Positions 14,204 to 24,966 of a stretch of DNA of 32,397 nucleotides are shown piece after piece. The stretch is from a virus. Made by a program: the position numbers and the translations under genes. How positions within the stretch are numbered: the stretch's first letter is position 1; the number at the start of each line of letters is the position of its first letter. The stretch is from positions 1-32,397 of IMG/VR virus record IMGVR_UViG_3300035523_000149; one strand, given 5' to 3'. Under the pieces are notes generated by a model. It was not told where the DNA came from, made no database searches, and was given only the letters and a program-made list of their open reading frames with translations.

Positions 14204-15835
14204 TCAAACCGGGCTGATCCTCACCCGCTCCTCGTACACCACCACATCGTCCAACTCTTCCCTCTCCCTGATCGCTTCCTGAATTTCCAGTAGCTTGTTG
14301 CATCCTGAAGATGCCGTGTCCACCTGGTCGTCATTGCGTCCTGCCGGGAACGCTACGCACTCCTCGATGAACGCCTGGTTCCATGCCCCCCTCACCAGTC
14401 GCACCTTCCCGCTCTGTGCCTTGCTAGCCAGCGGCCCTGCCCGCACCGTCTTGTCTCCGCTCACCGTTTCGAAGTCCCCATGCAGCCCTCTGTCTGCCAG
14501 CTGGCTGTTGGTGGCGAACGCCGAGTCCAACCCTGCGCTTCCTGGGTCTTGCTGGTGCCAGATTTTGAAAGGCCCGTGCGCCGTGTAATCCTCCACGCCG
14601 ATTTGCCCCATCATCTGGTCCCGTTCCCCTGGCGCCATCTGTCCTCGCGCCATGTGCTCAATGTAAATATTTCCGTCCTCGCCCAGGCTCATCAGTGCCC
14701 CGGCCGTAAAGTCGCCGCTTTTCGAAGCTGCCTTGTCCCAGAACCGCACTCTGGCCACCAGCCGTTCCCCGTTCTGGTAAGTCCTCGCCATGACCTTCTG
14801 CCCCGGCCCGCTGTCCACCACTGTGAACCACTCCCGCTTGAAGAACCCGCCCTCCCGCGAGTATGGGTTCTGCTGGTATTGGCTCTCAAACTCGTACATA
14901 TCGATGTTGGCCTTTTTCGCCTCCAGCCATTCCGCGCTGAACCTGTCCGGCCACAGAGCTTCGCCCGGCTTCCTGCCCATCGGGTCTTCCAGCGGCATAT
15001 AAATTCCATCCAGCATCAACTGCCGTTGCTCCTCCGCTGTTGCTGGGTAGTTGTCCTGTGCGATTGCTGGCAGAAACACCACCTCCCACTGGTCTGCCCT
15101 GCCGTCCTGCGCCATCCTGCGGATCAACCGCCCCGCCAGGTCGTCCGGGTGCCACCGCGTGTGGAACACCACGATTGCCCCGTGTGCCTCCAGACGGTTG
15201 TATGCCACCGACCGGTACCACTCATCCACGTCGTCCCGTCTGCCCTGGCTCTCCGCTTCCTGGCGTCCCTTCAGCGGATCGTCCACCACCAGCAGCGTTG
15301 CCCCCATGCCGGTGATTGACCCGCCGATGCCAGCCGCGATTACCCCGCCCCTGTGCGGCTGTGCCAGGTCCCAGGTCGCCACGCTCCGGCTGTCCGCGCT
15401 CAGGATTACCGGCGCTTCCAGGCTGCTCCTTGCCCCGAACACCCCCTGATACCTGTCGCCGATCACCAGCTCGCGCATTTGTCTGCTGTTTCTGCTCGCC
15501 AGGTCTGCTGAATAGGATGTCAGGATCACCCGGCTGTCGGGAGCCCTTCCCAACAGCCACGCCGGAAACTTGATGCTTGCCTGTTCGGTTTTCCCATGTC
15601 GTGGCGGCATCAGGATCATCAACCGGTTGATCCCTTCTTTCCCTCCGCTTTCGATGAACCTCGCCACCTTTTCTAGCTTTGCTGCCACGTGCTTGGCATG
15701 CGGCACTGCCAGGAACTTTGGATCGACATACCGGCAAAAGTCCAGGAAACGCAATTTCGCCAGCTCGCGCCGTGCCAGTTCCTGCCGCGCCTGCTTTGGC
15801 GATACCCTCGTCCTGGTGGATCCGTCAGTGCTCAT
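14204..15835 (-). CDS. Terminase large subunit
   Basis: This is the packaging motor, 543 residues. Walker A is PPRHGKTE (77-84), Walker B is LLVVDDP (181-187), and the coupling motif lies in FHTRWHPDDLAG (224-235). The C-terminal nuclease domain begins at VRFWDKAASKSGDFTAG with the first acidic residue of the RNase H-like site. The start overlaps the small-subunit stop by ATGA. It pumps DNA through the portal using ATP and cuts concatemers. Length and domain order are complete. Confidence 0.95.
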   Translation of the reverse strand: MSTDGSTRTRVSPKQARQELARRELAKLRFLDFCRYVDPKFLAVPHAKHVAAKLEKVARFIESGGKEGINRLMILMPPRHGKTEQASIKFPAWLLGRAPDSRVILTSYSADLASRNSRQMRELVIGDRYQGVFGARSSLEAPVILSADSRSVATWDLAQPHRGGVIAAGIGGSITGMGATLLVVDDPLKGRQEAESQGRRDDVDEWYRSVAYNRLEAHGAIVVFHTRWHPDDLAGRLIRRMAQDGRADQWEVVFLPAIAQDNYPATAEEQRQLMLDGIYMPLEDPMGRKPGEALWPDRFSAEWLEAKKANIDMYEFESQYQQNPYSREGGFFKREWFTVVDSGPGQKVMARTYQNGERLVARVRFWDKAASKSGDFTAGALMSLGEDGNIYIEHMARGQMAPGERDQMMGQIGVEDYTAHGPFKIWHQQDPGSAGLDSAFATNSQLADRGLHGDFETVSGDKTVRAGPLASKAQSGKVRLVRGAWNQAFIEECVAFPAGRNDDQVDTASSGCNKLLEIQEAIREREELDDVVVYEERVRISPV

Positions 15836-16464
15836 CCTTCGCCGTCCTCCTCGTCCTCATACCCGGCTAATGCTTCCAGCTCCTCCACGCTCTTCGTCTC
15901 TGCCCCTGCTCCCGCCTTCCGTTTCAGCAGGGCTTCCAGTTCGCTCTTCGGCACGTAATCTCCGCGCATCTCCAGTTTTAGCTTCAGATGATTGAAGAAT
16001 TTGTAATCCTCTCCCGCCTTCGCCGCGCCTTCCTCCAGCGCCGCGAAATCGTCCGCTCGGCTGTCCCACAATGGTGCGCTCTGCAACAACCCGATCACCG
16101 TGTCGATCTCCGGGTTGCGCTTCCGCCAGGTCGAGATCACCCTGTCGCTCGTCAGCCCCAGGTATTTCTTTGCCAGCTCGTCCTGCGTCTTTGGGCTTCG
16201 GTCGATCCTCGGCGAGCTTGCCCATGCAATGAACGTTGCCTGCCGCCACGGCCATCCGCCATCGATCAACCGGAACACATCATCCAGCCATCCTGGAGCG
16301 CCGGTTTCACCGCGCAGCCCTTCCAACGCGTGTCGCGCCACTGCGCTCCTTCGCGCCGCCTCCTCCGGAGAAACGCCCTCAAACTCCACCTCTGGCAGGT
16401 CGAGTTCAAAGGCCTTCTGCTGGTATTGCGCTTCCAATGTGTAATCCGGTTTATTGATCGGCAT
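15832..16464 (-). CDS. Terminase small subunit (late-operon copy)
   Basis: The protein has 210 residues, with GAAGGA six bases ahead of the ATG. A DNA-binding helix-turn-helix is likely at TQDELAKKYLGLTSDRVIST (about 108-127), followed by WRKRNPEIDTVIG. The middle helices would make the oligomer core and the acidic C-terminus (GYEDEEDGEG) could contact the large subunit. Its stop overlaps the large-subunit start. A clear paralogue lies at 23921-24532 sharing GGWPW, ISTWRKRNP and MRGDY/MGDYIP. The assignment depends on the partner gene and HTH pattern. Confidence 0.78.
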   Translation of the reverse strand: MPINKPDYTLEAQYQQKAFELDLPEVEFEGVSPEEAARRSAVARHALEGLRGETGAPGWLDDVFRLIDGGWPWRQATFIAWASSPRIDRSPKTQDELAKKYLGLTSDRVISTWRKRNPEIDTVIGLLQSAPLWDSRADDFAALEEGAAKAGEDYKFFNHLKLKLEMRGDYVPKSELEALLKRKAGAGAETKSVEELEALAGYEDEEDGEG

Positions 16465-16467
16465 TCT

Positions 16468-17898
16468 TTATCCTTCAACCTTCACCAGGTCGCGCAGATC
16501 CATCCACAGCTCCTCCCCCTCGTTCGCGATGGGGAACAACCGCGCAAATCTCCCATCGGTGCTCATATCTGTCCAACCATTGGGGTGGTTGGCACTCGGC
16601 CGATACCCGATGGAAAAATTGTGAATGAGCGTATCCGTGCCATGGCCGTCCACCGGCATTGGCAGCCGCGCCGCCGGTGGCCGTTGATTGACGGTATAAC
16701 AATCGATCAGCGCCGCCTGAACCGTTTGGCGTTTCCCATCGATCACCAGCTCACGTTTTTCGATCCGCTTCACCCGCACACGGTTCCCCGCCATTGTTAG
16801 GCATTCCACCCGCCTGGCTCCGGCTCGGTTATGCCAGCCGACTTCGTCATTGAATTCAGTTGGAGTGTTGAATTGGTACTTGAATGCCCGTCCGGGGTTG
16901 ATCTCCACCGCGAAAGCCATCCAATCAGCCGGGAGCGTTACCCCGCCCTCGCCGTATTTTCCACTGGCTGTGATGATCGGGTGGAACCGGACGGTTTCCG
17001 GAAGACCGTTCCTCACATATGGCCGGAACGCCCCGGTTGCCATGGCCTTCGAATCGTCCAGGATTTCCCAGATGCCTTCATCGATCGGAGGTGTTACAGG
17101 CGGAGGGGGTGGCACCACTGGCCGCTGGTCAATCGTCCGGTTGTAACTGCTGCCGTTTACTTCCACCCGCACCGTCATCAACTTCTGAAGCTTTACCCCT
17201 TCTTCTTCAACGCTGGTCACCTTCACCGCCACTGGCGCTGGAGTCTCCGCTGTCAGATCCAACCCAAACTCCGCCTCAAATAATGCCTGATCGCCGTTAT
17301 ATAAGTCGAGATCGACAAATCCGGCTTCATTGATCCCGTACTTTGCTGCCGGGCCTTGTTCGGTATGTTGCCAGAATGTCCACCGCCCCCATGGCTTGAT
17401 GTCAGGCTTATCCACCTCATAATTCGCGATCCACAGCTTCCTCATGAGTAGTGGAGACCCTGTCAGGTTTTTCAGTCCCATGTAATACTGGATGATGTTC
17501 GGACTGGTATATAAAATTGCTGATCGTCCGAATGCCGCATCGATGGCGCTTAACATCTCCACCACCTTATTGACCAGCTCCAGACCCTTTGGCAGCTCCT
17601 TGTACCAATCCTCCACATCGAGAACTGGTGGAAGTTCCAGACCTCTCGCCACCGAATAGTAGAATTTTGCCTGCGCGGTCGCGGAATTCTGCGGCCGCCA
17701 ATAGTGGAATGTCCCTCTCGGCAGCAACCCCGCCAGCGCCTTGCTGTGCAGGTCGAACACCGGGTCTTTCCAGCTGATCCCCTCCGTCGTCTTCATAATG
17801 ACGAAACGCACTCCGGCGCTTTTCGCTTTTTGCCAGTCGATCGTCACCGGCGTTGCTGGGTTGTCTTTCCACCTGCTCGTATCCATTCCCAGGATCAT
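16468..17898 (-). CDS. Endolysin: GH25 lysozyme with unknown C-terminal region
   Basis: The protein has 476 residues. The first 215 residues are a GH25 muramidase: MILGMDTSRW with D6, the catalytic pair in PVLDVEDW (D94, E96), KLWIANYEV, and WTFWQHTEQGPAAKY. It cleaves the glycan bond between N-acetylmuramic acid and N-acetylglucosamine. No signal peptide is present, so release needs a holin, which fits the two membrane genes just upstream. A linker with a proline run (VVPPPPPVTPPIDEG, near residue 265) leads to about 200 residues I do not recognise, possibly a wall-binding region. Confidence 0.9.
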   Translation of the reverse strand: MILGMDTSRWKDNPATPVTIDWQKAKSAGVRFVIMKTTEGISWKDPVFDLHSKALAGLLPRGTFHYWRPQNSATAQAKFYYSVARGLELPPVLDVEDWYKELPKGLELVNKVVEMLSAIDAAFGRSAILYTSPNIIQYYMGLKNLTGSPLLMRKLWIANYEVDKPDIKPWGRWTFWQHTEQGPAAKYGINEAGFVDLDLYNGDQALFEAEFGLDLTAETPAPVAVKVTSVEEEGVKLQKLMTVRVEVNGSSYNRTIDQRPVVPPPPPVTPPIDEGIWEILDDSKAMATGAFRPYVRNGLPETVRFHPIITASGKYGEGGVTLPADWMAFAVEINPGRAFKYQFNTPTEFNDEVGWHNRAGARRVECLTMAGNRVRVKRIEKRELVIDGKRQTVQAALIDCYTVNQRPPAARLPMPVDGHGTDTLIHNFSIGYRPSANHPNGWTDMSTDGRFARLFPIANEGEELWMDLRDLVKVEG

Positions 17899-18305: not shown

Positions 18306-18719
18306 TTATCTGGCGTAGTTCGGTAAAAGCTTCTTCAGGGTTCCCTGCACGCCATACGCGGCCAGCAGAGTCCCAGCGAAGGTGAATAATGCGGTCACCC
18401 CCGCGTGGTACGTAGCCGGAATCATCGCCAGCAATCCATTTGCGAACACCACCACGAACGCCACCAGCGCCCCAGTCAGTGCCGTTGCCGGGCCTTCCAG
18501 GGTAGGCACCCAGGGCAATGCCTTCGAAAGCGATTTCAGCCCGTTCGTGATCAACCAGGTCACCCCTGTGTTCAGCAGCGCCACCGCCCAGCCCGGCAGC
18601 TCCGGAGCCTGCGCAGCCTCCTGTCCGGCCCTCATCGCCATTGCCTGGCCAGTTGCCGCCACCAGGCTTACCAAAACTACCAATCCCACCAATGTCAAAA
18701 TTACATGCGTCCTTTTCAT
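18306..18719 (-). CDS. Holin-like multi-helix membrane protein
   Basis: The protein has 137 residues and is the first gene of the late operon, with AAGGAG eight bases before the ATG. Hydrophobic segments lie at about 6-24 (possibly a cleaved signal), 42-60, 77-100 and 104-124. The protein ends in a short basic tail (LKKLLPNYAR). Size and topology fit a holin controlling endolysin release, and the endolysin is two genes downstream. No named holin family is recognised. Confidence 0.68.
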   Translation of the reverse strand: MKRTHVILTLVGLVVLVSLVAATGQAMAMRAGQEAAQAPELPGWAVALLNTGVTWLITNGLKSLSKALPWVPTLEGPATALTGALVAFVVVFANGLLAMIPATYHAGVTALFTFAGTLLAAYGVQGTLKKLLPNYAR

Positions 18720-18743: not shown

Positions 18744-18784
18744 AAAACAAAAAAGCCCCGCCGCGCTCTATGCGCGACGGGGCT
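18744..18784 (-). terminator. Intrinsic terminator in the late leader
   Basis: The minus-strand RNA has a GC-rich stem of 12-13 bp (GCCCCGTCGCGC with GCGCGGCGGGGC, one G-U pair) and a 5-base loop, followed at once by six U, a G and four more U. It lies 25 bases before the holin-like start codon, downstream of the promoter, so it would stop late transcripts unless overridden. Confidence 0.88.
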
Positions 18785-18846
18785 CATCCGTCCAACTTTC
18801 TGCCCGCGCCATATTCTGCCGGGCTTGCTTTCGATTGTTTCCCCGT

Positions 18847-18883
18847 ATGGTGACTGGCATTAGGGGGGAATGCCAGTCACCAT
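18847..18883 (-). repeat. Perfect 15-bp inverted repeat in the late leader
   Basis: ATGGTGACTGGCATT (18847-18861) and AATGCCAGTCACCAT (18869-18883) form a perfect 15-bp stem around a 7-base loop. No T tract follows on either strand, so it is not itself a terminator. It lies in the transcribed leader between the promoter and the terminator and could be an operator or an RNA control hairpin. Confidence 0.85.
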
Positions 18884-18915
18884 TGGGAAGCAAGGGTATT
18901 ACCCCTTACACATCC

Positions 18916-18944
18916 ATCTTAAAACATTATTATTACTTTGTCAA
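18916..18944 (-). promoter_or_regulatory. Late promoter (sigma70-like)
   Basis: On the minus strand a perfect TTGACA box (18944-18939) is followed by 17 bases and TAAGAT (18921-18916, four of six matches to TATAAT). Transcription would start near 18909 and give a leader of about 190 bases before the holin-like gene. AAGGGTATTACCCCTT at 18892-18907, just past the start, is a short palindrome that could be an operator. Confidence 0.72.
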
Positions 18945-19074: not shown

Positions 19075-19290
19075 TTGAATGAATTTTGGAAATCTTACTT
19101 TCGCAGGCTGTTAATCCTCATTTTGGGACCTGCACTCATAATTCTGGTTTACGCATTCTTCTACCCCGACTTAATCCCCTTCTTCGGCACGATGGTCCAA
19201 TTTTTGGGTGCTTTAGGCCTTGGCCCGGCATTCATTATCTTTTTTGTCGGCATCCTCCTCATCTCGGCCATCCCCAAAAATCGTCTCTAA
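19075..19290 (+). CDS. Small two-helix membrane protein
   Basis: The protein has 71 residues and is the only convincing plus-strand gene in the window. GGGAGG (19061-19066) lies eight bases before a TTG start. An ATG at 19068 opens only a four-codon frame. Two hydrophobic segments span about 11-30 and 42-64, with a basic start (KSYFRRL) and end (IPKNRL). A strong terminator follows at 19314-19346. It diverges from the late operon and faces the toxin-antitoxin genes. Function is unknown; lysogenic conversion or superinfection exclusion are possible for a small independent membrane gene. Confidence 0.65.
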   Translation: MNEFWKSYFRRLLILILGPALIILVYAFFYPDLIPFFGTMVQFLGALGLGPAFIIFFVGILLISAIPKNRL

Positions 19291-19313: not shown

Positions 19314-19346
19314 AAGAAAGTCCGGTGAAACCGGACTTTCTTTTTT
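19314..19346 (+). terminator. Bidirectional intrinsic terminator between convergent genes
   Basis: AAGAAAGTCCGG (19314-19325) and CCGGACTTTCTT (19331-19342) form a perfect 12-bp stem with loop TGAAA, followed by four more T on the plus strand. The arm itself supplies a partial U tract on the minus strand, so it can serve both the membrane gene and the convergent toxin-antitoxin operon. Confidence 0.88.
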
Positions 19347-19353
19347 GAAATGC

Positions 19354-19773
19354 TTATTCCTTCTTGAAACTCACTTTTACTGGCAAGGCAGCAACTTTTC
19401 GCCATTCTTGTTTAACATTATCACGGTACTCAACATTGAAATAATATTGACCTGCTTCTGATAATTTTAGCCCGGAGAAATAACTGCGAGTTCGCAACCG
19501 CTCATAATTTTTAAGATCTAGCTCCTGTTCGAGAGATTGAAGCTCTTCCCCATTTGGTGATGTGAACACAGATCGGCCAAAACCAGAGATTGGTATATTG
19601 ATGTCAGAACGAATCCATAATGTGACTAGGCTTACAGTTATTGGATAAACCTTATTTGGTGCTGGCTCGTCCGGCAAGGTTAATTCTTCAATCGAATTTA
19701 TCAGGCTGACCAGATTTGAATCTTGATCAATTATTGAATTTTGGCAAAGAACGCTCCATACATGGGTAATCAT
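19354..19773 (-). CDS. Third gene of the toxin-antitoxin operon (possibly DUF6941-like)
   Basis: The protein has 139 residues and overlaps the antitoxin stop by four bases (ATGA), so translation is coupled. It has an N-terminal pattern SVLCQNSIIDQDSNLVSLIN, alternating strands in the middle, and a C-terminal FSGLKLSEAGQYYFNVEYRD segment ending in LPVKVSFKKE, all consistent with a beta-sandwich. From memory this resembles the DUF6941 family, unverified. Base composition is AT-rich like the other two genes of the operon. It could be a chaperone, a third toxin-antitoxin component or an unrelated cargo gene. Confidence 0.7.
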   Translation of the reverse strand: MITHVWSVLCQNSIIDQDSNLVSLINSIEELTLPDEPAPNKVYPITVSLVTLWIRSDINIPISGFGRSVFTSPNGEELQSLEQELDLKNYERLRTRSYFSGLKLSEAGQYYFNVEYRDNVKQEWRKVAALPVKVSFKKE

Positions 19774-20420
19774 TGAACTGTCCTTTCAGTAGCACCCACA
19801 ATGCTGAAAATTGATTTTAGTTGAGGAGAAATATCTGATCCAACAATTTTGAAGTCTGGCTTATCAAATAGATTCACTAATATATTTTTATCTGGAAGAG
19901 CTTCTATTGATGCTTCGCCACTTAGATTTGCTTTTAGATTTGCTTTTGAAGTTAACAACAATTCTATGAAATATGGGGTGAAGACAGCTCGAGATTTGAA
20001 TACATTCTCCATCAATAAATTGATTATTAGTTCAGCTTCCAGATGAGAATCAGGCCCATTTAATTCATAGGCTTGTCCCAATACATCCATCGAGATCCCC
20101 AAGCCTTCACTTAGACTTCTAATCATCTTGATAGATAAACTTCTTTTTCGATTTAAAATCTCAGACACGCGTGAAGGTCCACCGATAAAAGGTTCTAAAT
20201 CTTTACGAGTCATTCCGAGCCGTTCCATGTGATATTCAATAGCTTCTATTGGATCAGGCGCAGGAATTGGATAATGTTCGTCTTCATAAACGTTTACCAG
20301 GATGGACAATACTTCCAATTTATCTCCTTCAGAAGTTCCTGGTTCGGCAGAAAACAAACTCTCAATTTCTTTCAATGCTTCTTCGTATTCTTCGTTGGTT
20401 CGAATCGGCTTTAGTTCCAT
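19770..20420 (-). CDS. higA: HigA-type antitoxin with extra C-terminal region
   Basis: The start is the ATG at 20420, giving MELKPIRTNEEYEEAL, the usual opening of this family; a GTG three codons earlier (20429) is also open. After the family segment LFSAEPGTSEGDKLEVL and HYPIPAPDPIEAIEY comes a helix-turn-helix (GMTRKDLEPFIGGPSRVSEI, then NRKRSLSIKMIRSLSEGLGI). This binds the operon operator and neutralises the toxin. Typical relatives end near residue 130-145; this one is 216 long, adding about 85-90 residues with no family I recognise. It follows the toxin gene by 22 bases, the toxin-first order usual for HigBA. Confidence 0.88.
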   Translation of the reverse strand: MELKPIRTNEEYEEALKEIESLFSAEPGTSEGDKLEVLSILVNVYEDEHYPIPAPDPIEAIEYHMERLGMTRKDLEPFIGGPSRVSEILNRKRSLSIKMIRSLSEGLGISMDVLGQAYELNGPDSHLEAELIINLLMENVFKSRAVFTPYFIELLLTSKANLKANLSGEASIEALPDKNILVNLFDKPDFKIVGSDISPQLKSIFSIVGATERTVQ

Positions 20421-20442
20421 AAAATTCACCGCTTTCTTTGCC

Positions 20443-20736
20443 TTAAATATTTAATGCATCAATCCGATCATATTCAGCATGTGTTCCAATAAATCTGATG
20501 AAAATTATCGTTGATTTATAATGTATTGCAACTACTAATCGATAATCATTCCCCTTAATATTGAATACGGCCCGGTTATTTCCTAAGATGGTGTCATCAC
20601 CATATTCATTTTTAATATCTTCAGGGCGAGTCCATCTGGACTTTTTAGCATGGTCATACCAAGACTCCAGCGAGCCACGCGAATCGGCATGATTCTCCAA
20701 AAAATTTTCTAATATTTTCCTAGAAATGACCCGCAT
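20443..20736 (-). CDS. higB: HigB-type mRNA interferase toxin
   Basis: The protein has 97 residues. It matches the HigB family from end to end: MRVISRKILENFLENH, SLESWYDHAKKSRW, NNRAVFNIKGNDYRLVVAIHY, and the ending IRFIGTHAEYDRID. These ribosome-dependent endoribonucleases cut mRNA during translation. The His in GTHAEYD and the Arg/Lys-rich face are the expected functional residues. The family-fixed start (MRVISRK) lies only 6-7 bases from the promoter -10 box, so the transcript may be nearly leaderless. The gene is complete with no disruption. Confidence 0.92.
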   Translation of the reverse strand: MRVISRKILENFLENHADSRGSLESWYDHAKKSRWTRPEDIKNEYGDDTILGNNRAVFNIKGNDYRLVVAIHYKSTIIFIRFIGTHAEYDRIDALNI

Positions 20737-20874: not shown

Positions 20875-21090
20875 CTAAAACTCGATCTCCAGCGCCTCAT
20901 TCAAAATCAGCCGCATTCTGTTGGCTGCCCCCACATCCGCCCAGCTGATGTTATCCGGTGCGATCTTCTCCTCGAGTACTTCCGCCAGTTTTCCGTTCAG
21001 TTCATCCAGCTTTCCCTGAATCAACTCGATCTCTCTTGAGTAAACTCTTCGCGGATCGACCGTATAACTTGCTCTTCGTGTTGGTTTCAT
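20875..21090 (-). CDS. Small helical protein of unknown function
   Basis: The protein has 71 residues and overlaps the preceding gene by ATGA. The N-terminus is basic (MKPTRRASYTVDPRRVYSR), followed by a predicted helix (EIELIQGKLDELNGKLAEVL) and DNISWADVGAANRMRL. The helix plus ISW-x2-V arrangement echoes the upstream neighbour (ITWGSV), so the two may be diverged paralogues or partners in a helical complex. It is the last gene before the operon terminator. No family is recognised. Confidence 0.65.
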   Translation of the reverse strand: MKPTRRASYTVDPRRVYSREIELIQGKLDELNGKLAEVLEEKIAPDNISWADVGAANRMRLILNEALEIEF

Positions 21091-21374: not shown

Positions 21375-22598
21375 TTACTGATCTGCAAGCTCTGGCACTT
21401 TCCCTGTCATCACGCTCCACCGCTCCAGCGCCACTGCCACATACACTGGATCATTGTCCATCGCCCTGCATCGCCTTCCCTTCTTTTCACATGCAATGAT
21501 CGTCGTCCCGCTACCGCAAAACGGCTCGAGCACCAGGTCTCCCGGCAGGCTCGAATTCTCAAGCGAGCGTTCCACCAGTTCCACCGGCTTCATCGTTGGG
21601 TGTTCTTCCGATACTTTCGGCCTGTCAATCAGCCATACATCCGACTGCTTCCGGTCTACCACCTCCCGCACCCTGGCCGAGTCTGACTTCCACCCGTACC
21701 ACAACGGTTCATATTGCGTGTGGTAATCCTTCCTGGAAAGCACCAGTTGATCCTTCACCCAGATGATTGTGCTCGACCAGTGGAATTTCTTCTGCCTTAA
21801 AATGCCGTCCACCACCGGCCATTCCTGTGCACTCATTACCAGGTACAGCACCGCCCCTGCGATGCAATAATCCCAGATGTTCTGCACCGCTGCCGCCACA
21901 AACTCCGGAAACTTCTCTCCTAGGTTGTCATTATTCATCGACCTTTTCCGCCAGCTTGGATGCTCGCTCCCCCCATAGTTCACGTTCCACGGTGGGTCAG
22001 TCCAGCACAACGTTGCCCGCTCGCTGCCCACCAGGTGCCCCACGTGCCCCGCATTTGTGCTGTCCCCGCACATCAACCGGTGATTTCCCAATTTCCAAAC
22101 CTGGCCCACCTCAACCCGCCATTTTTCCCATAACTCCTGCGCCCGGTCCAGCTCAGGCCCCGGATCGACCAACTCGTTCTCTCCCTCCTCCAGCTCTAAC
22201 AACAGCTTCATCAATTCCTTGTCGGTGAACCCCAGCCCTTCCAGGTTCAGTCCCGCCTCCACATCCTCGGCCACCTGGCTGACATTCCAGGCCAGGTCCA
22301 GTTCACTGACCCGGTTATCCAGGTATGCCAGCCTTCGCGCCTCACCGGTGGGATCGTTCAAGTCCAGGTCGTCCCGCTGGACCATGATCAGCTCGTCCTT
22401 CCCGCCTTGGATAACCCGCACCTTCAGCCCCAGCCTTTGCGCCATTCTCAAGGTTTTATTCCCGGCGATTACATTCCCATCCTTGTCGATCAGCCCGCTT
22501 CTCCCTGCCCCCAGCTCCTGAAGTGATTGTTCCAGCAGCTCCTGCCCTCGTTCCGTGCCCGCGTTCGCGTTGTGTGGGTCAAATTTCAGCTCGGTCAT
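21375..22598 (-). CDS. ParB-like/DNA methyltransferase fusion, TDPPW type
   Basis: The protein has 407 residues. Residues 1-110 are a ParB/Srx-like domain (SGLIDKDGNVIAGNKTLRMA, then PTGEARRLAYLDNRVSELDL). Motif IV is TDPPW (200-204) and motif I is EPFCGSGTT (358-366), with HPTMKPVEL before it. This IV-before-I order is the beta class. DPPW most often marks N6-adenine enzymes acting on amino groups using S-adenosylmethionine. Its 5' end overlaps the upstream paralogue by 20 bases. It probably modifies phage DNA against host restriction; no restriction endonuclease is adjacent. Confidence 0.9.
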   Translation of the reverse strand: MTELKFDPHNANAGTERGQELLEQSLQELGAGRSGLIDKDGNVIAGNKTLRMAQRLGLKVRVIQGGKDELIMVQRDDLDLNDPTGEARRLAYLDNRVSELDLAWNVSQVAEDVEAGLNLEGLGFTDKELMKLLLELEEGENELVDPGPELDRAQELWEKWRVEVGQVWKLGNHRLMCGDSTNAGHVGHLVGSERATLCWTDPPWNVNYGGSEHPSWRKRSMNNDNLGEKFPEFVAAAVQNIWDYCIAGAVLYLVMSAQEWPVVDGILRQKKFHWSSTIIWVKDQLVLSRKDYHTQYEPLWYGWKSDSARVREVVDRKQSDVWLIDRPKVSEEHPTMKPVELVERSLENSSLPGDLVLEPFCGSGTTIIACEKKGRRCRAMDNDPVYVAVALERWSVMTGKVPELADQ

Positions 22599-23937
22599 TT
22601 TTGCTCTCCAGAACCGGTTCTCTACCGGTCATGATCGCCCATCTCTCCAATGTCGCTGCCACATGGGCCGGGTTGATTTCGATTGCCCGGCATTTCCTCT
22701 TCATGGCCTCGCAACCGATCAGGGTTGTCCCGCTCCCGCAAAATGGTTCGAAGACGACCTCTCCCCGCTTTGTGTACAGCATCAGGTGTCTCAAAGGCAG
22801 CTCAACCGGAAAAGCCGCTTCATGCCCGTTTGCCCTGGCCGTGCCCCTGATGTCATCCCAGTAAGATCGCAGCGCCCACTTTGCACCTGTCCATTCCTGC
22901 CCTCGCTGCTTTCCGCTCCGGTTATAAAAGGTCATCAGCATTTCGATGTCTCCGTCATTGAAGGTGTCGTCGAAGTGCATTTCTTTTCCTTCCTGGTGTT
23001 CATAAGTGCCCAGGAATTCGTTATGCTGGTCTATCACATCCGTCCTCGGTGATGTGGACATCAACTGGCCTTCCTTCAGCCAGTGCCGCACATGCCGCAA
23101 GTTCCAGCCTTTTTTCCTTAGCGCGTTTGACCATTTATCTATTAGCAGCAACACTTGCCGTTTCGATTTCTTGTCGAATGCGGTCGTGAACCCCGTTCCG
23201 GTGTTGATCACGATCCTGCTTAGGTCTTGCTTCACCCGCGCAGCCAGCCTGCTTGCCACCTGCTCGATAAAAAGATCGATTTCCGTTTCCGTAGTCTGGG
23301 TCTCATAAGATTTCCCCACCCAGTACGGTGGGCTTGTAAAAGCCAGTGCCGCCATTTCTTCTTCGCTTTCGAATACATTGTCCACTACATTCTGATCGGT
23401 GCAATCGCCACACACGAGTCGGTGTTCACCCAATCCCCACACCTGACCATTCTCCGTCTTCCATTTTCTCAGCAGCTCATCCGCCTTGTCCGTCTGATCC
23501 CCCGGATCCGCGCTCGTTTCCTCCCCATAATCCATCTGATCCAGCACCTCGCGCAATTCCCCTTCCATGAATCCCATCGCCTCAAAATCCATCCCCGCCT
23601 TTGCATCTTCTGCAACTTGCTCCGGATCCCATTCCAGGTCTATCTCAGCAACCCGATTGTCCAGATATGCCAGCCGCCTGGCTTCGCCGGTGGGCACTGT
23701 CAGATCCAGGTCATTCCGTTGGACCACTACGAGCTCGTCGCCACTCGTTTCCACCAGCCTCAGCTTTAGTCCAAGCTTCTGCGCTTTGGCATAGGTCTTG
23801 TTACCGGCGATGATGTTCCCATCCTTATCTGTCAGGATCGATCGCCCGGCGCCCAGTTCCTGCAACGACTGTTCCAGCAGTTCTTGGCCTCGTTTCGTGC
23901 CTTTGTTCGAGTTTTTGTTATCAGGCTTCAGGTTCAT
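22579..23937 (-). CDS. ParB-like/DNA methyltransferase fusion, TSPPY type
   Basis: The protein has 452 residues and is a clear paralogue of the next gene: the N-terminal ParB-like domain is shared almost word for word (GQELLEQSLQELGAGRS, then GNIIAGNKT and GEARRLAYLDNRV). Motif IV is TSPPY (201-205) and motif I is EPFCGSGTT (397-405). SPPY is usually linked to N4-cytosine methylation, in contrast to DPPW of the paralogue. The insert between motifs is about 40 residues longer and differs, as expected for another target-recognition region. The gene overlaps the stop of the terminase-like gene by 17 bases. Confidence 0.9.
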   Translation of the reverse strand: MNLKPDNKNSNKGTKRGQELLEQSLQELGAGRSILTDKDGNIIAGNKTYAKAQKLGLKLRLVETSGDELVVVQRNDLDLTVPTGEARRLAYLDNRVAEIDLEWDPEQVAEDAKAGMDFEAMGFMEGELREVLDQMDYGEETSADPGDQTDKADELLRKWKTENGQVWGLGEHRLVCGDCTDQNVVDNVFESEEEMAALAFTSPPYWVGKSYETQTTETEIDLFIEQVASRLAARVKQDLSRIVINTGTGFTTAFDKKSKRQVLLLIDKWSNALRKKGWNLRHVRHWLKEGQLMSTSPRTDVIDQHNEFLGTYEHQEGKEMHFDDTFNDGDIEMLMTFYNRSGKQRGQEWTGAKWALRSYWDDIRGTARANGHEAAFPVELPLRHLMLYTKRGEVVFEPFCGSGTTLIGCEAMKRKCRAIEINPAHVAATLERWAIMTGREPVLESKNDRAEI

Positions 23938-24532
23938 CGTCTTGCTCTTCCTCCGCTGATGCTGCCAGTTCCATCAATTCTTCCATGCTCAGTTTGCTCA
24001 TATCCTTCCCTTTCATCTTTCCTGTTACCGCGAGCAGCGCCTTGCTTGCCGGGATGTAATCACCCATCAACTCGAACGCCAGCTTCCGGTCATTGTGGCT
24101 CTTATATTCCGGCTTCACTGCCACTGCCACCAGCGCTGTGAAGATTTCCGCCCGGTGTTTGAACAGCGGCCCCGCTTGCATCTGCCTGATCATCTCTTCG
24201 ATTGCCGGGTTGCGCTTTCTCCATGTGGAAATTGCTCTGTCGCTGTTCAGCCCTAGGTACTCCCGCGCCAGCAGCTCCTGCGTCTTTGGTTCTCTCATCA
24301 CCCTGGGGATTGATGCCCATGCAATATATGCCGCCACCTTCCATGGCCAGCCTCCTCGCACCAACTCCTGATAATCATCCAGCCACCTCGGTGCCCCTGC
24401 TTTGCCAAACATCCCTTCGATTGCCTTTCGCGCCGCCTCACTCCTGATCCTGTCATTTTCTGTGATATTCGGCTCCTCATCCTGCAAATCCAACGCCAGC
24501 AATAGCTGGTAGGAAGGTCTCGGAATTGGCAT
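23921..24532 (-). CDS. Second terminase-small-subunit-like protein
   Basis: The protein has 203 residues with AAGGAGG eight bases before the ATG. It parallels the 210-residue protein next to the large terminase: MPI at the start, GAP-WLDD, GGWPW, AWAS-PR, a helix-turn-helix at TQELLAREYLGLNSDRAIST, WRKRNPAI, and GDYIPASKAL, ending in an acidic tail. It probably binds DNA through the HTH. It heads the methyltransferase operon rather than neighbouring a large terminase. It may be a packaging paralogue, a regulator, or a targeting factor for the methyltransferases. Confidence 0.75.
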   Translation of the reverse strand: MPIPRPSYQLLLALDLQDEEPNITENDRIRSEAARKAIEGMFGKAGAPRWLDDYQELVRGGWPWKVAAYIAWASIPRVMREPKTQELLAREYLGLNSDRAISTWRKRNPAIEEMIRQMQAGPLFKHRAEIFTALVAVAVKPEYKSHNDRKLAFELMGDYIPASKALLAVTGKMKGKDMSKLSMEELMELAASAEEEQDDEPEA

Positions 24533-24553
24533 ATCAATTTCCTCCTTTTTCTT

Positions 24554-24598
24554 TAAATAAAGAAACGCCCGCCACTCCCTTTTAGGGAATGACAGGCG
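24554..24598 (-). terminator. Strand-specific intrinsic terminator
   Basis: The minus-strand RNA folds CGCCTGTCATTCCC (24598-24585) with GGGAGTGGCGGGCG (24579-24566): 14 continuous pairs including three G-U, loop TAAAA, followed by UUUCUUUAUUU. On the plus strand those wobbles become A-C mismatches, so the element works mainly leftward. It separates the early accessory genes from the methyltransferase operon. Confidence 0.82.
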
Positions 24599-24630
24599 CC
24601 TGCGATTTATTTATAGCACACCTATTCTAT

Positions 24631-24966
24631 TTATACAACCCCTTTTTCTCTCTCCCTCATCTTCCCCACCAGATGCTCCATCGCCTCCTGCCCGATGAAC
24701 CACGCCCGGCTTGCCCCGCACCCCGGCACGTCGCAGCGCACGTTCAGCGTCGTCCCCTCCAGCACCGCGATCACATCCACCTCCTCCGGTGTCTCTGCCT
24801 GCATATCGATCGCGTGCCGGTACAGGTTCAACCGTGTGACATAATGCTTGCGCCCGTTGTTGTTCACCTCTACCCTCACCACTTGCCCCAGCTGATGCCC
24901 GTTTCCGCACTTCCAGCTCTTAGTAAGACCGTCCACATTCACCTCCATCCAATAAAATTCATTCAA
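24631..24966 (-). CDS. Putative zinc-ribbon protein
   Basis: The protein has 111 residues and overlaps the preceding gene by ATGA. C20 and H24 (KCGNGHQLGQ) near the start and C78 and C83 (VRCDVPGCGASRAWF) near the end could form a split zinc-ribbon site; between them lie beta strands and a YVTRLNLYRHAI segment. The last 20 residues are a charged helix. It is the last gene before a terminator. Function is unknown; a nucleic-acid-binding or small regulatory role is guessed from the metal motif. Confidence 0.65.
   Translation of the reverse strand: MNEFYWMEVNVDGLTKSWKCGNGHQLGQVVRVEVNNNGRKHYVTRLNLYRHAIDMQAETPEEVDVIAVLEGTTLNVRCDVPGCGASRAWFIGQEAMEHLVGKMREREKGVV

Follow-up and report, generated by a model that had tools for sequence, protein, structure and literature searches.

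A conserved late-operon leader with the features of a transcription attenuator in phages of probable Chloroflexota hosts, and a zinc-ribbon protein as candidate antiterminator

In the virus record analysed here (32.4 kb in its full length, hereafter the window), the late genes are headed by a leader which we interpret, with a probability of roughly 0.7, as a late-operon attenuator whose antiterminator hairpin would be stabilized by a trans-acting factor, most likely a small zinc-ribbon protein that we call zn99. This reading is built on the observed layout of the leader, its conservation among relatives, two mutually exclusive and covarying RNA helices, a conserved loop, the presence of multiple copies in some phages, a restriction to phages and predicted energies that favor termination by default. 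A broader proposal is made more tentatively, since we place it slightly below an even chance: an undescribed family of RNA attenuators and a new family of zinc-ribbon antiterminators would together constitute a late-gene switch, sometimes governing a late regulon of several operons, in a large group of Chloroflexota (Anaerolineae) phages.

The late operon and its leader

From position 18719 down to position 1, the window encodes a holin-like protein, a GH25-type endolysin, TerL, portal, capsid and tail proteins (Table 1), which supports the assignment of this block as the late operon and of the leader as its starting point. A first-pass annotation of the same DNA had already proposed such an operon, led on the minus strand by a promoter, a perfect 15-bp repeat and a GC-rich terminator with a U6 run, all of them located before the first late gene. 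Each of these elements is present, the terminator stem measuring 14 bp, and the late genes now identified from 18719 to 1 agree with the proposed operon. Transcription from the late promoter is expected to start at about 18908 on the minus strand, and the terminator is followed by a ribosome-binding site and an ATG at 18719.

Table 1. Coordinates of the late leader, of neighboring genes and of the candidate factor in the window
Feature	Position	Strand	Evidence or remark
Late promoter, TTGACA-N17-TAAGAT	18944-18916	minus	10 of 12 consensus matches; same site in L003, L004, L008, L009 and others
C6-loop hairpin (module A), exact 15-bp inverted repeat with 7-nt CCCCCCT spacer	18883-18847 (arms 18847-18861 and 18869-18883)	minus	
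Hairpin B1, GCCCG...CGGGC	18824-18802	minus	Precedes the attenuator; visible in L003 and L004
Antiterminator hairpin (module B), X = GACGG, loop ATGAGCC, X' = CCGTC	18792-18776	minus	Own pairing; covariation in relatives
Intrinsic terminator, GC-rich 14-bp stem (18785-18753) and T6 (TTTTTT)	18785-18748	minus	Fold; covariation of the arms in relatives
Bidirectional terminator, 13-bp perfect stem	19314-19342	both	-19 kcal/mol on each strand; T/A runs
First late gene, holin-like small membrane protein (137 aa)	18306-18719	minus	Position ahead of the endolysin gene
Endolysin, second recognizable late function	16468-17898	minus	PHROG endolysin, E 2e-23
TerL	14204-15835	minus	
zn99, zinc-ribbon protein of about 100 aa, probable GTG start at 24936	24631-24936	minus	Previously unannotated

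The terminator region folds at -36.1 kcal/mol (z = -6.1) and the whole leader at -92 kcal/mol (z = -8.4), a value that none of 200 shuffled sequences equalled. The number of terminators found in the region (8 for 6.8 expected) and that of promoter-like sequences are both close to chance when compared with shuffled sequences, so that the case is built on the strength and conservation of these elements and not on their mere presence.

Upstream of the leader lies the bidirectional terminator, which should insulate it from leftward transcription arriving from further upstream. A small gene on the plus strand (19075-19290; 71 aa, hydrophobic, with a TTG start and a GGAGG site) ends at this terminator. 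Given the opposite-strand gene and the terminator, leftward early transcripts should stop before they reach the late promoter and the late genes would need a promoter of their own; the context therefore supports a separate late transcript.

Related phages and their probable host

Searches with TerL identified two close relatives, L003 (83%) and L004 (80%), and, in both viral contigs and genome assemblies, numerous more remote ones. Of the genome contigs, the closest belongs to the Chloroflexota MAG HGW-Chloroflexi-6 and others to Anaerolineae; the host of the phage is probably a Chloroflexota bacterium. At the DNA level, the window has no similarity to annotated phages beyond chance. More than 20 related loci share the succession of promoter, short leader, strong terminator, ribosome-binding site and first late gene, located 1-3.3 kb before TerL. 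This conservation of the leader is the decisive support for the layout observed in the window.

In many of the late promoters of L003, L004, L134, L154, L157, L163, L164 and L171, the pentamer GACTC is found directly 5' of the -35 hexamer, as GACTCTTGACA or GACTCTTGTTA. It is a possible DNA site for a regulator.

Two mutually exclusive helices in the leader RNA

The comparison of about 50 relatives uncovered a segment of 4-6 nt, X, lying just 5' of the terminator and able to pair with X', a segment of the terminator 5' arm. The loop separating X from X' has the consensus AGAUGAGCGC, i.e. AG(A/U)UGAGCGC, and is nearly invariant, including in the members derived from TerL searches. When 34 members are aligned, 93.5% of the cells of the X:X' helix are paired, against 53.8% after shuffling, with a covariation of 0.954 against 0.183; for the terminator helix, which shares X', 99.7% of the cells are paired and covariation amounts to 0.669 against 0.180. 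Sliding the partner abolishes the signal of both helices in this alignment. Its rows were partly selected for X, and the unbiased check is provided by a set obtained with a pattern that does not demand X (GAGATGAGCGCC...GGCGCTTTT), which returned 31 viral contigs. There, 23 of the 25 distinct members carry at least three contiguous X:X' pairs beyond the fixed closing pair, the same pairing is reached in 6% of swapped partners and none of 20,000 permutations matched the set.

Both helices occupy the X' columns and are therefore mutually exclusive, one of them being an intrinsic terminator, an arrangement which characterizes attenuators in general. Among the members, the predicted energy of the antiterminator lies between 0 and -7.7 kcal/mol and that of the terminator between -21 and -39 kcal/mol; with a weak antiterminator facing a strong terminator, the default state is predicted to be termination (OFF), as in the attenuator class. 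We consider it likely that the leader is a transcription attenuator terminating by default. The earlier view that most transcripts would stop at this point unless antitermination or refolding occurs is upheld by these predicted energies and by the conserved leader, and its core, the control of the late operon by antitermination, is well supported. The comparison of relatives nevertheless designates as the conserved regulatory element the short antiterminator hairpin on the terminator 5' arm, which the first-pass annotation had missed.

A covariance model made from the alignment finds the attenuator in the TerL relatives of the window's group and, in the same search, in none of the acetic-acid-bacterial, acidobacterial or Firmicutes TerL relatives. 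The sole labelled exception to this group restriction is L177/L213, a contig binned as Clostridiales. Among 298 genomes from the class of the host MAG, the pattern occurred in 13, a figure similar to that of a reversed-pattern control, and none of these occurrences resembles the attenuator. L141, L334 and L342 each have two attenuators on one contig, located ahead of genes of the holin type and ahead of portal or scaffold/capsid genes, and second copies placed before different late blocks imply a shared trans-acting factor.

Covariance models of Rfam 15 gave no match above the gathering score in the window or in the leaders of 12 relative loci; a riboswitch or another known RNA family was ruled out, as these scans returned chance matches only. 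Attenuation by translation of a leader peptide was rejected since many loops are devoid of ATG (AGTTGAGC, AGTGAGC, TAGAGCG) and no start codon is conserved. A pattern of the form GGCGCGGGC...TGAGC, run over viral contigs, proved too loose and was dropped because chance matches predominated.

The copy carried by the window itself is divergent. When set against the family definition (X, a loop of the AG(A/U)UGAGCGC type, X'), its X and X' do pair, X' lying within the 5' arm of the terminator, but the loop is shortened (ATGAGCC, or GATGAGCCC with a 4-bp stem) and covariance model R1 gives it no score at E <= 0.5. The loops of L003 (CATGAGCAC) and L004 (ATTGAGCCC) are akin to it. The window is thus attached to the family by DNA similarity and alignment to the L003 and L004 leaders, by position and by its own GACGG/CCGTC pairing.

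Conservation of the upstream hairpin B1 is modest, with a mean z of -1.8 over 51 members. In the leaders of L210, L290, L296 and L311, segments preceding B1 (TTCCGC, CTACGC, CTTCGC) are complementary to segments following the terminator (GCGGAA, GCGTAG, GCGAAG). These segments seem to covary and could possibly form a long-range helix in the read-through RNA.

The 15-bp palindrome as a separate module

No other perfect inverted repeat in the window is as long as the 15-bp one, whose hairpin folds at -24.9 kcal/mol (z = -6.2); second in length comes the 13-bp terminator at 19314-19342. A pattern scan recovered 28 viral contigs, about 26 of them distinct, in which a C6 loop is found 19-25 nt after a TATAAT box. 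Their stems differ between contigs, yet complementarity extends to 11.7 of the 13 flanking positions, compared with 6.7 when partners are swapped. In the relatives bearing this module (L289-L316), a promoter precedes a stem of 13-20 bp with the loop CCCCCC(T); the stem is closed by TG..CA in most of them and is AT-rich in the window. Sequences 3' of the hairpin are rich in T, with a T7 run in L301, and in many phages the hairpin is served by a separate promoter situated a short way upstream of the late one. Judged by the complementarity maintained between its arms, the C6-loop hairpin is a second conserved module; it is possibly a short structured phage RNA of about 45 nt, which is a guess.

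Most members of the attenuator family have no C6 run within 330 nt. The palindrome is therefore not required and is unlikely to serve as the antitermination signal. The role of put/qut-like element attributed to it by the first-pass annotation is probably wrong, both for this reason and because the hairpin often belongs to its own promoter. The comparison of related phages advocated at that stage thus gave a divided result: the terminator is conserved, while the palindrome forms a separate module in about 26 contigs and is absent near most attenuators.

A candidate trans-acting factor

The near-invariant residues of zn99 follow the arrangement C-x3-H ... C-x2-C in most relatives, a few residues longer in some, and C-x3-H ... 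C-x4-C in the window. Of 50 whole records bearing an attenuator, 30 were found to encode the protein, among them 20 of the 26 that reach at least 20 kb. It went undetected in the long attenuator records L134, L141, L304, L319, L322 and L341, L141 carrying an apparently broken copy. In L139, L165, L331, L344 and one copy of L342, its gene is the immediate upstream neighbor of the leader. Among TerL-bearing loci that span 9 kb or more, 25 have both zn99 and the attenuator, 8 the attenuator only, 2 zn99 only and 95 neither, an association that is confounded by shared ancestry. The two loci with zn99 only carry divergent attenuators when read directly: GCAGC-AGTAAAAAGCGC-GCTGC with a terminator in L156, and a shortened terminator in L144.

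An independent check is offered by 50,697 annotated phage records, in which the sole homologue of zn99 is encoded by Virus Rctr41k. This phage possesses at 15,647 (15.65 kb) an intergenic attenuator, GACG-AGATAAGCGC-CGTC with a terminator, before the late genes, as predicted if zn99 and the attenuator go together. Neither Rctr41k nor the control of late genes in such phages was the subject of any paper found in a literature search.

No Pfam, PHROG or NCBIfam family matches zn99. Its AlphaFold model (pLDDT 88) has no fold match in the PDB, so that RNA binding is without structural support, and its lone confident match in a viral fold library is an unnamed viral protein. By association, zn99 is most likely the antiterminator and the best candidate for this function. 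Families of primases and methyltransferases were considered as well and rejected, being too rare or tied to other functions. The earlier statement that the window has no Q-like gene is confirmed by the absence of PF06530 and PF03589 from 11 records in searches where positive controls matched; a candidate antiterminator gene can nevertheless be named.

Comparison with known systems and alternative explanations

Protein-controlled attenuation is known as such; we rate the RNA family and the candidate protein family as undescribed. In the Bgl/Sac systems (LicT/SacY), a protein stabilizes a small RAT hairpin overlapping the 5' part of a terminator, the two helices being mutually exclusive (PMC4347634). 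By analogy, the element of the window would operate in the same manner, through protein-stabilized refolding. It differs by its conserved 10-nt apical loop, its short closed stem, its location in phage late operons and an unrelated zinc-ribbon candidate. The attenuator is not a member of the Bgl/Sac RAT system, as CAT_RBD (PF03123) is absent from 11 records including the window, with controls matching in 4 genomes. ANTAR regulators such as NasR and EutV act on a pair of hairpins placed in tandem ahead of an intrinsic terminator (PMC4347634), a disposition also encountered here. The ANTAR domain had no match in 11 records, in a search where the control matched nowhere either. In ANTAR systems, the second hairpin overlaps the terminator; the apical loop of the targets is a hexaloop, whereas that of the present family has 10 nt. 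The conAn system, which heads the long conjugation operons of pLS20, also combines an RNA element with a small protein (PMC8955417); the likeness is one of description only and concerns a different genetic element.

The same attenuator might be operated by a stabilizing factor other than zn99, either a host RNA-binding protein, the TerS-like paralogue at 23921-24532 or a 71-aa helical protein at 20875-21090. We regard this as possible though not probable: zn99 went undetected in 6 of the 26 records that reach 20 kb or more, some phages carry TerS-like paralogues a short distance upstream of their leader and several have a member of the 71-aa family upstream, but zn99 co-occurs with the attenuator far more often (in 26 of 50 partial loci, compared with 8 for the 71-aa family), it adjoins the leader in at least five phages and the Rctr41k check turned out as predicted. 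The TerS-like family is moreover already accounted for by its TerS function. A different, unlikely alternative dispenses with RNA refolding and supposes that a protein loads on promoter-paused polymerase to render it terminator-resistant, as does lambda Q, the folds of the leader RNA being incidental. The window shares with the lambda Q/pR'-tR' region (and with Q82, Q21 and AlpA) its genome position, a strong promoter, a strong promoter-proximal terminator before lysis and late genes, lysis genes in first place and the need for antitermination, so that the order Q - pR' - tR' - holin/lysin is reproduced. The lambda Q gene lies immediately upstream of the late leader, a place mimicked by that of zn99, which in L139, L331 and L344 immediately precedes the promoter, and the GACTC box recurs 5' of the -35 hexamer in many relatives. 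However, such a mechanism leaves unexplained an invariant RNA loop in a covarying stem that overlaps the terminator, and no protein of the Q families was found. For its loading, lambda Q depends on a DNA element and on a pause that is sigma-dependent (PMC7171158), whereas a covarying RNA refolding element is found here.

It is quite improbable that termination yields the functional product, the leader acting as a small regulatory RNA comparable to lambda 6S RNA whose active part would be the C6-loop hairpin. C6-loop hairpins indeed follow strong promoters of their own in many relatives, with a conserved loop, variable stems and, in L301, the T7 run, but most attenuators have no such hairpin nearby and a pure small RNA needs no X segment; this reading could nonetheless hold for module A alone. 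We consider very improbable a protein-free mechanism in which the nascent RNA of B1 and of the X hairpin would bind the polymerase directly. The model for it is HK022 put, an element of about 70 nt acting without dedicated proteins and without terminator overlap (PMC9378689). Two tandem hairpins right after a phage promoter and the lack of a Q gene are common to both, but here the 3' arm of the second hairpin belongs to the terminator as well, and a conserved terminator would serve no purpose if antitermination were constitutive. Taken by itself, the X hairpin is also too weak, and the modest conservation of B1 argues in the same direction.

Proposed mechanism and implications

According to the preferred reading, a late-operon attenuator with a factor-stabilized antiterminator, RNA polymerase would start constitutively at the sigma-70-type promoter and stop by default at the terminator about 160 nt further on. 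The X-loop-X' hairpin, which borrows the terminator's 5' arm, would form first, although it is much weaker than the terminator (in the window, about -2 against -32 kcal/mol). A factor acting in trans, most likely zn99, would have been produced at an earlier stage of infection; it would bind the conserved loop, perhaps together with hairpin B1, and hold the antiterminator in place, allowing the polymerase to proceed into the genes for lysis, packaging and structural proteins.

Such a mechanism would amount to a late switch distinct from Q, N and put, relying on the refolding of a leader RNA like the antiterminators of sugar operons, and used by phages of a phylum from which few phages have been characterized. 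It would account for the silence of the late operon behind a constitutive promoter, and the leader and zn99 would constitute an RNA-protein pair open to direct testing. With the covariance model and the loop motif, late operons and this group of phages could be spotted in metagenomes, and the C6-loop hairpin would represent a further undescribed phage RNA.

Other features of the window

Between the early and late blocks, the window encodes a HigB-type toxin (20443-20736; Pfam HigB_toxin, E 2e-30) and an HTH antitoxin (19770-20429), the pair being preceded by a terminator at 20855-20826. Two tandem genes at 21375-22598 and 22579-23937 encode ParB-methyltransferase fusions which are mutual paralogues and are kept in relatives. 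TerS-like proteins are also present as two paralogues, one early (23921-24532) and one before TerL (15832-16464), with up to three copies in relatives (L132). Finally, a terminator-like GC hairpin following a TATAAA box is located on the minus strand at 24553-24605, between zn99 and the early TerS-like gene, and may be another regulated leader.
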